Translations under genes and position numbers: made by a program
The notes under the pieces: model-generated
Told to the model about the DNA's origin: nothing
The model's database searches: none
Seen by the model: only the letters and a program-made list of their open reading frames with translations
Part shown: piece by piece, positions 28,810 to 63,304 of the stretch
Position numbering within the stretch: the stretch's first letter is position 1
Layout: every line of letters starts with the position of its first letter
DNA from: Heliocidaris erythrogramma
Taxonomy: Eukaryota; Echinodermata; Echinoidea; Camarodonta; Echinometridae
Assembly (NCBI GenBank): GCA_025617745.1
Contig: CM046853.1
Coordinates: 8,324,974-8,388,973 of the forward strand
Direction: 5' to 3'
Length of the DNA: 64,000 nucleotides

Positions 28810-30696
28810 ATGTTTACACCAAACGAGGTGAGTGACTGGATAATAGAAGCTGAGCAGCAAAGTTATAGCCATCATTAAAGTGGTGGACAGTAGTAGCAGT
28901 AGTAGTAGAAGCAGCAGCAGCAGTAGTAGTAGTAGAAGAAGTATATTATTATTATTAGTTGTTGTTGTTGTTGTAGTAATAGTAGGAGTAGTAGTAGTAG
29001 TAGTAGCAGCAGTATAGTAGTTGTAGTAGTAGTAGAAGTATAGTACATGTAGTAGTAGTAGTAGAAGAAGTAGTAGTTGGTGTTGTTGATGATTGCGTTG
29101 ATGACAGTGGTGGTGGTGGTGTGATGGTGGTGAGGGTGGTAGTAGTGGGGATGGACGGTGGTGAAGGTGGTACAGTATCTAGGATTATGGCGTCCAGGGC
29201 AAAAACTTAAGTTGCGCCCCCCCCCCCCCCCCCGTGCCCAAACCTATCGTTATTGTGCAAGCGAGGGAGCAAAGCGACCGACCGGCAAATGTTTTTCATT
29301 TTTAACCCTAAAAAAACACAACTTCTTGCACATTTCACCCAGGAAATTTTGCAACTCACCACTGCAATTGAGCCGTAGAGAAGTTCGAATTTTGTACATT
29401 GATAAACGGTTTTCTAAAATGGGGAAAAAATAAACGAAAACCCTTGAGAAATAGTCAAGGAATTTAGCCAAAAAAAAAAGGCTGAAAATTGAAATTTCTT
29501 TAAATGTTAAACCTCTGCAAATGCTGTTTTATGCACTTTATCCTATATTGGGGGCGCAATATTTAGCAAGAGGCAGATAAAACTGAGATGATAGCGTGCA
29601 AAGCAACGACAATTTCATCTTTATTCTTCAAATTTTGAACCCTTAAAAAACTATTAAAGAGCTATATACCGGGGGCACGAAATTACGAGATCCTGAAAGA
29701 AATTATTAATTTTTGAAAAATGTGCATTTTTAAATTCTCAAAAACTGTATTTCTGATGCATTTACCCTGCCGATTGGGGCGCATAATGAGTCGTTTTCAA
29801 TACTGCATCACTGAGGATGGCCATGCATAGCTCTCAAGTTTTGGTATGATTCATTTCTAATCATCAGGATCGATATGATAATAAACACGGACACGAAAAC
29901 CTTGCCTACGATCACGGGGAAGCTAAAGGTCATGTCGAACTTCGAGAGGTCGGGCGGGCCTCGGAAAGGCCTGCGACCACTGTAAATGAGGGCCAGCAAT
30001 CAAAGAATGCATGTAAGACGTACCTTATCTTCGTCATCATTCTCTGCGTCGTCATCGCAGTCATCGTCGGGATTACAATTGGTATAGATGCAGCCACCGA
30101 CGGTGAGCTATGAGATAGCCTTTAGGGTTCAATCGTATCCGCGGCCCTATAATATTCTCTTCTTTGTTTGTAATCCTATTGCGATAATGGATGGTTATCT
30201 TCGCATAAACATTAAAAATATATATATTATCCTACTGCTAATACAATGATTATTACGAGGTGCACGAATGAGTAATATATTATAAAGATACCTTAAGAAA
30301 GACTGATAAATGTAATTTAAAATGAAAGACCGGTATCTCATCCTCTTATTAAACAAAACGCTTAATCAATGTTTATATGCTAAGCCCAGTGAAAAAGAGC
30401 ATCCCGGAAAAGGAAACTTGCCTGTCAATAATAAATACCTTAATTTCTTTTGCATTGCACAGTTCATTATTGAAGGGGTCGAACATGAATCATAATCACA
30501 ATACTTTACAGACGGTGTCGCTAGGCAATTTTATTTATTTATTTCACCACAGTCCCGACCCTAATTGGAGACACTGTCACATTTTTAAAAATATATCATT
30601 TGATTTTTCTTATATATATTAATCAAGGACAAAACAAGAGAACAAACAGACCAACTATAGTCCCTGAACCGTTTCCAACTACCACATCATCACCAG
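28810..30696 (+). CDS. N-terminus: start exon, cytosolic tail, transmembrane anchor, Thr/Pro stem
   Basis: A six-codon exon, MFTPNE (28810-28827), ends in GAG|GTGAGT, phase 0. It joins 29868-30102, preceded by TTTCTAATCATCAG, which opens with [15 protein letters not shown]. That exon gives a hydrophilic tail of 56 residues ending in NACK, then an uncharged hydrophobic helix (residues 57-79, starting TYLIFVII) and DAATDG. Exon 30628-30696 adds a Lys/Arg then Thr/Pro-rich stem ([12 protein letters not shown]). A basic tail before a single helix and no signal peptide predict type II topology. The helix exon has no in-frame ATG, so an upstream start exon is required; the 28810 exon fits in phase and donor strength but is inferred. 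Confidence 0.65.

Positions 30697-63304: not shown

Follow-up and report, generated by a model that had tools for sequence, protein, structure and literature searches.

We consider it likely that in Heliocidaris erythrogramma a single gene codes for a membrane polyserase (type II, about 2109 residues) in which an inner protease head (SP1) would bind but barely cut and an outer one (SP2) would be active and elastase-like. These two heads are unequal, because SP1 carries threonine at catalytic position 195 and SP2 has a full triad. The gene lies in the window, by which we mean the whole stretch of 64,000 nucleotides analysed, to which all coordinates refer unless a contig is named (CM046853.1:8,324,974-8,388,973, forward strand, of the 1.06-Gb assembly GCA_025617745.1; contig C1 below). 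The window has a G+C content of 36% and no Rfam match at or above cut-off.

Gene model and module scaffold

The gene model was built from the open segments in the three forward frames together with splice-site scoring, and comprises 34 exons on the + strand, from the ATG at 28810 to the TGA at 63304 (6330 nt, 2109 aa, no internal stop; Table 1). The initial annotation had read one continuous frame over this span and the model bears this out, with all 34 exons open; because the splice sites were picked by eye from the top-scoring candidates, these exons are a model and not a transcript. The predicted introns are GT-AG in 32 of 33 cases and 27 of 33 are in phase 1, including all 24 junctions between modules, while the SP1 and SP2 cassettes have identical internal phases (2, 1, 0). 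When ranked against all such sites in the window, 28 of 32 GT donors and 22 of 33 acceptors fall in the top 10%, the weakest acceptors being those before LDL3 (49th percentile) and LDL7 (63rd percentile). The one GC-AG intron follows CUB3 (46374); the corresponding donors of neighbouring CUB exons are GT. Two candidate features were dismissed: a frameshift in CUB5, suggested by overlapping frames at 48.5 kb that a phase-0 donor and a second CUB5 exon explain, and an LDLa module at 45.7 kb, a region that is a Ser/Thr linker exon.

Table 1. Predicted exons and the modules they encode. F is a paralogous locus described in the text; donor values are splice-site scores.
Feature	Position	Strand	Details
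Exon 1, start of cytoplasmic tail (MFTPNE)	28810..28827	+	ATG; donor 8.3, phase 0
Exon 2, remaining cytoplasmic tail and predicted TM helix (residues 59-77)	29868..30102	+	KD 3.48; phase 0 to 1
Exon 3, short Ser/Thr/Pro stalk	30628..30696	+	donor 8.7; phase 1-1
SP1 exon a: propeptide Cys, activation site R/IIGG, Cys42, His57	32808..32985	+	Pfam Trypsin 2.3e-55 across SP1
SP1 exon b: Asp102, Cys122	33440..33696	+	residues by alignment
SP1 exon c: Asp189	40105..40247	+	residues by alignment
SP1 exon d: GDTGGP, Thr195	40834..40993	+	codon ACC 40840-40842; Thr in 7/7 exon copies
CUB1, cysteine-free, CUB-like	41482..41820	+	Pfam CUB 14.9 bits, below cut-off 21.4
EGF-like, six Cys	42105..42218	+	hEGF 16.9 bits, far under cut-off 29.3
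MAM exon a	42773..42949	+	Pfam MAM 7.5e-34
MAM exon b	43535..43885	+	Pfam MAM; MAM-CUB2 piece aligns to enteropeptidase heavy chain
CUB2	44225..44590	+	Pfam CUB 5.4e-07, 30.3 bits
Ser/Thr-rich linker exon 1	44891..44947	+	phase 1-1; donor 4.3
Ser/Thr-rich linker exon 2	45720..45773	+	phase 1-1; donor 4.5
CUB3, CUB-like from position and layout only	46060..46374	+	no Pfam match; GC donor next
LDL1, four Cys	46783..46884	+	Pfam LDLa 26.3 bits
CUB4, CUB-like	47296..47649	+	no Pfam CUB match; 37% identical module at matching place in F
LDL2, four Cys	47832..47930	+	Pfam LDLa 15.4 bits, under cut-off
CUB5 exon a	48318..48547	+	CUB5: Pfam CUB 16.6 bits, under cut-off; counterpart in F
CUB5 exon b	49759..49906	+	acceptor phase 0, donor phase 1
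LDL3	50493..50609	+	part of joined Pfam LDLa piece, 5.8e-35; weak acceptor
LDL4, six Cys, without calcium cage	50905..51003	+	no Pfam match alone
LDL5, four Cys	52122..52217	+	joined Pfam LDLa piece; 65% identical module in F
LDL6	53750..53854	+	joined Pfam LDLa piece; 65% identical module in F
LDL7	54177..54293	+	joined Pfam LDLa piece; 66% identical module in F
LDL8	55365..55502	+	joined Pfam LDLa piece; 58% identical module in F
CUB6, CUB-like	56939..57421	+	no Pfam CUB match
LDL9, four Cys	57695..57808	+	Pfam LDLa 24.3 bits
CUB7, CUB-like	58138..58548	+	no Pfam match
LDL10, four Cys	59630..59740	+	Pfam LDLa 22.5 bits, slightly below cut-off 24.1
SP2 exon a: propeptide Cys, activation site R/VVHG, His57	60270..60459	+	Pfam Trypsin 2.7e-48 across SP2
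SP2 exon b: Asp102, Cys122	61524..61801	+	residues by alignment
SP2 exon c: Ser189	62269..62411	+	residues by alignment
SP2 exon d: GDSGGP (Ser195 codon AGT), Ile216, Ser226, stop TGA	63143..63304	+	residues by alignment

The predicted chain reads, in order, cytoplasmic tail, TM helix, SP1 (S1), CUB-like, EGF-like, MAM, interleaved CUB-like and LDLa modules, SP2 (S1) and stop. The TM helix is the sole segment with KD > 1.6 (in scoring windows starting at residues 51-67), and the three upstream stretches scanned contain no signal-peptide-like exon; a single predicted signal-anchor near the N-terminus with no cleaved signal peptide is the arrangement of a type II TTSP. Above the Pfam cut-offs are both Trypsin domains, MAM, CUB2, LDL1 and LDL9, and the joined LDL3-LDL8 piece holds five Pfam LDLa stretches. 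SEA and SRCR gave no Pfam match in the pieces scanned, two linker exons lying outside the scan. The MAM-CUB2 piece matches the enteropeptidase heavy chain over 245 residues (E 1.7e-23), ranked next after a scavenger-receptor MAM.

The CUB-like modules are more divergent. Only CUB2 passes the Pfam cut-off, CUB1 and CUB5 are weak and CUB3, CUB4, CUB6 and CUB7 have no match; comparison of these four with CUB1/CUB2 by hhalign gave a probability of only 4.7, and their profile retrieved from PDB, as its only plausible match, cubilin at E 0.055. As far as sequence goes, four of the seven CUB-like modules are thus without support for a CUB fold. The initial annotation had listed TM, protease, CUB, EGF, MAM, seven CUB-like, ten LDLa and protease: the TM helix, the two proteases, MAM, LDLa and CUB2 hold, CUB1, CUB5 and EGF stay under cut-off and four CUB-like modules are unmatched. 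Our count is seven CUB-like modules in the whole chain, one before and six after MAM, and these six are interspersed with the ten LDLa modules rather than forming a block of each. Half of the LDLa modules have only four cysteines, with a spacing that, by eye, fits loss of C1 and C3 together as a disulfide pair. In 9/10 the calcium cage keeps its terminal DE, the exception being LDL4. SP2 is likewise without both Cys136 and Cys201, and such losses in pairs would be expected of a folded, selected protein.

Elsewhere in the window, exons of a Ras/Rab-type GTPase lie on the - strand (26332-23795; Pfam Ras 2.2e-22 for the middle exon) and an exon of a haloacid-dehalogenase-like hydrolase on the + strand (5062-5322; Pfam Hydrolase_6, 1.2e-11), further exons of which are probably downstream. 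Long tandem repeats occupy 1-1862 (period 327), 26781-27592 (403), 32093-32352 (128), 37274-38396 (186) and 49192-49528 (156); the 128-bp repeat is a perfect pair, and the CUB5 intron contains the array at 49.2 kb.

Paralogous loci and the extent of the gene

We searched the genome with a 695-residue query from SP1 to CUB2 and scored 64 of 611 candidates. At least six further loci with SP1 exons lie on contig C5 (named A-F), together with a partial copy on C1, and the initial annotation had overlooked this membership in a gene family. A, B and F were read over 40-80 kb, and C, D and E over their SP1 exons only. The partial copy (C1:8130876-8131752, with SP1 exons a and b among the matches listed) is left out of the count of seven SP1 copies used below, 1.3 kb of it having been read; this piece (C1:8130701-8132000) is 97.8% identical to window 32632-33926, which it precedes on the contig by about 227 kb. 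The genome also contains intron-poor trypsin clusters: at least 18 full-length matches, each in one open frame of 275-453 aa, lie on C2 (14), C1 (3) and C17 (1), one with an in-frame TGA.

In A, B and F, SP1 is followed by CUB1-EGF-MAM-CUB2. F then continues with LDL-SP-CUB-LDL-SP-CUB-LDL-LDL-SP-CUB-CUB and with LDL-CUB4-LDL-CUB5-LDL3 to LDL8-SP2, the last SP2 exon having its stop at the same place as in the window; a counterpart of CUB6-LDL9-CUB7-LDL10 was not found between LDL8 and SP2. The three extra proteases between the end blocks are all GDSGGP, and F (C5:44720001-44804000) has five S1 domains on one strand, of which one carries Thr195 and the other four Ser195 (AGT). Because it is collinear with the window gene we take F to be one gene, possibly encoding one five-protease polypeptide. 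Identity between the window and F is 61% for SP1, 59% for SP2, 58% for LDL3-8, 40% for CUB1-EGF-MAM-CUB2 and 36% for CUB4/5. In A and B no SP2 was found in the 28-36 kb read beyond CUB2, and two heads are therefore not necessary in every copy. Upstream of A, B and F, the 4-7 kb of sequence read showed no TM exon, and a predicted membrane anchor is therefore seen in the window copy only.

Phase-1 modules alone cannot tell one gene from two, and the window could instead hold two or more genes, a short membrane protease stopping at 41005-41007 (tail GKNN) and a downstream mosaic protease. Without splicing at 40993 the frame would run for 11 extra bases to a stop, giving a plausible C-terminus, a polyA-like hexamer lies at 41057, and a short form could also arise through intron retention. 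A second gene would, however, be without a credible start: when the 17,041 intron bases between 40994 and 63142 were scanned for signal-peptide-like first exons, two overlapping reads came up and no others, against none in the reverse-strand control, and this candidate exon at 49.25 kb was dismissed as part of the 156-bp tandem repeat of the CUB5 intron. (A similar scan in F carries no information, because it gave 3 matches vs 4 on the reverse strand.) In all seven copies, moreover, the last SP1 exon has a phase-1 donor 160-175 bases from its start (scores -0.15 to 5.59), while the unspliced tails differ, and F keeps both end blocks in the window order, which favours one gene. Separate genes thus seem distinctly improbable to us, and the internal start that the initial annotation had named as the sign of them is disfavoured by the scan, the donors and F alike. 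The architecture that it proposed is largely correct, and one gene is the best reading: a polypeptide tethered to the membrane, with proteases at its two ends, agrees with the open frame, the TM helix, the two Trypsin matches and the collinearity of F.

Thr195 in SP1 and the triad of SP2

What the initial annotation had also missed is the residue at the centre of the SP1 active site. In an alignment of SP1 to plasma kallikrein, Thr stands where the catalytic Ser is, and a sequence search places the enteropeptidase catalytic chain among the best matches to SP1; the site is intact elsewhere (His57, Asp102, Asp189, Asp194, Ser214, Cys42, Cys58 and the activation site R/IIGG). All seven copies of SP1 exon d found in the genome encode Thr195, by ACC in the window and E and by ACT in A, B, C, D and F. 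Across 231 codons shared by the seven copies (window and A-F, two contigs), 114 positions are invariant, and Arg15, Cys42, His57, Cys58, Asp102, Asp189, Asp194 and Ser214 are kept in every copy. The window copy is 60-63% identical to the other six, with dN of 0.28-0.31 and saturated silent sites (pS 0.78-0.88); dN/dS is 0.12-0.21 in the six of 21 pairs for which dS could be computed, all six among the 15 pairs without the window. In a tree of 11 domains, the six SP1 copies used (of seven) group on one branch with support 99/98. Thr195 is therefore old and kept, since all copies have it and identity still stands at 60-63% of residues although silent sites have reached saturation; and because SP1 is conserved like SP2 and constrained across copies, it is not decaying. 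Thr195 might also be a sequencing error, or mark a recent loss of Ser as the gene decays, its codon being one base away from a Ser codon of either family; with both ACC and ACT on two contigs, a single branch in the tree and 34 exons without a stop, we regard such an origin as next to impossible.

With a triad residue replaced in 7/7 copies, SP1 resembles serine protease homologues in this respect. Statements in PMC8695361, which trace to Pelc 2015 and Baird 2006, are that engineered S195T greatly compromises thrombin and trypsin, with a suggested clash with the Cys42-Cys58 bond; the same source says that Thr is undocumented in trypsin-family active sites. SP1 has both cysteines and is probably crippled as a protease by Thr195. 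It might nonetheless work as a threonine protease, with the Thr195 hydroxyl as nucleophile and specificity from Asp189, and the retention of His57, Asp102, Asp189, Asp194, Ser214 and R/IIGG beside Thr195 in all seven copies speaks for this, as does a constraint equal to that of SP2 in the one pair compared (window vs F). Conserved neighbours alone are no proof of catalysis, however, because many Tenebrio homologues in the tables of PMC11172050 are H-D-G (Gly195) and, though inactive, retain His, Asp and Asp189. Given the S195T impairment, the presence of Cys42 and Cys58 and the beetle homologues, we prefer a head that binds or regulates, and place a slow threonine protease behind it as an unlikely reading.

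SP2 has the full triad (H57, D102, S195) and, as in a TTSP, is a C-terminal S1 domain with an Arg activation site. TMPRSS2 chains are its best matches, with pancreatic elastase among the best 60, and the TMPRSS2 alignment gives Ser189, Ile216 and Ser226 for the pocket, which we take to be elastase-like by elastase residue rules. The equivalents in F, Gly189, Val216 and Asn226 (by eye), presumably make an elastase-like pocket by the same rules. These residues predict an active, elastase-like protease. The two-headed form proposed at first holds, but the heads are unequal, and the active protease expected at the tip agrees with the complete triad of SP2, its activity being a prediction from residues.

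In the one-gene reading that we prefer, the product would be a polyserase of about 2109 residues with a type II membrane anchor. SP1 would have a trypsin fold and a trypsin-type pocket with Thr for the catalytic Ser, would cut poorly or never and would most likely bind substrates or inhibitors or regulate the assembly. The CUB-like, EGF-like, MAM and LDLa modules would form a scaffold, about 1500 residues long, that keeps SP2 off the membrane. SP2 would be made as a zymogen and activated by cleavage after Arg1868, and a Cys1858-Cys1981 bond would hold the activated domain on the chain.

Known mosaic proteases and the SP1 family

Proteins of this kind are already known, namely polyserase-1, insect Nudel and enteropeptidase, and two or more S1 domains per polypeptide, as in polyserases, are present in the 2109-aa model and in the predicted chain of F. 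Enteropeptidase (TMPRSS15) is a trypsin-like protease with SEA and SRCR domains; it resembles the window gene in the MAM-CUB2 match of its heavy chain and the SP1 match of its catalytic chain. It differs in having one protease rather than two, and the window gene shows neither SEA nor SRCR nor a C-terminal trypsin-type domain with D189, SP2 having S189, I216 and S226. Polyserase-1 shares the type II anchor, LDLa and several S1 domains per chain, and its sister polyserase-2 also has inactive domains; polyserase-1 differs in its one LDLa and three tandem S1 domains, with no long CUB/MAM scaffold in the description given (PMC1435904). Nudel, as Tenebrio pSerP1050, is likewise membrane-anchored (TM 58-80) and LDLa-rich, with two S1 domains in one chain and one triad broken (PMC11172050). 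There the active trypsin (D189) comes first and the inactive domain second, with LDLa between; the window gene has the reverse order, and its SP2 is not D189. Nudel has moreover seven LDLa, with no CUB, MAM or EGF in that listing, and its inactive site is T-E-D vs H-D-T in SP1 (PMC11172050). The initial annotation knew of no family with this module order, and our literature search, with animal proteomes outside it, listed no paper on it. The claim of novelty is tempered by at least seven copies of the SP1 unit in the genome and by Nudel, a membrane two-protease LDLa mosaic with one domain inactive (PMC11172050).

The Thr195 substitution is itself not unique, because beetle H-D-T homologues are published: Tenebrio SerPH122 and SerPH245 have His57, Asp102 and Thr195, differing from SP1 in their S1 residues (G/L/S and G/M/T vs D/G/G), a comparison that covers the active-site and S1 residues in Table 8 of PMC11172050. 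Among the papers listed, one on effectors combines GDTGGP with "serine protease". SP1 may conceivably found a conserved family of natural Thr195 trypsins, still slow threonine proteases or covalent traps, within a modular membrane protease that has five protease domains in one paralogue, although we give this idea little credence. An ACY codon for Thr195 is one base from both AGY and TCN, and the family may therefore show catalytic codon switching through threonine. The membrane protease lineage seems, from F, to insert whole protease units between fixed end blocks. With every copy found carrying Thr195 in an otherwise intact site under strong constraint, the question "why serine and not threonine" becomes testable on a natural protein.
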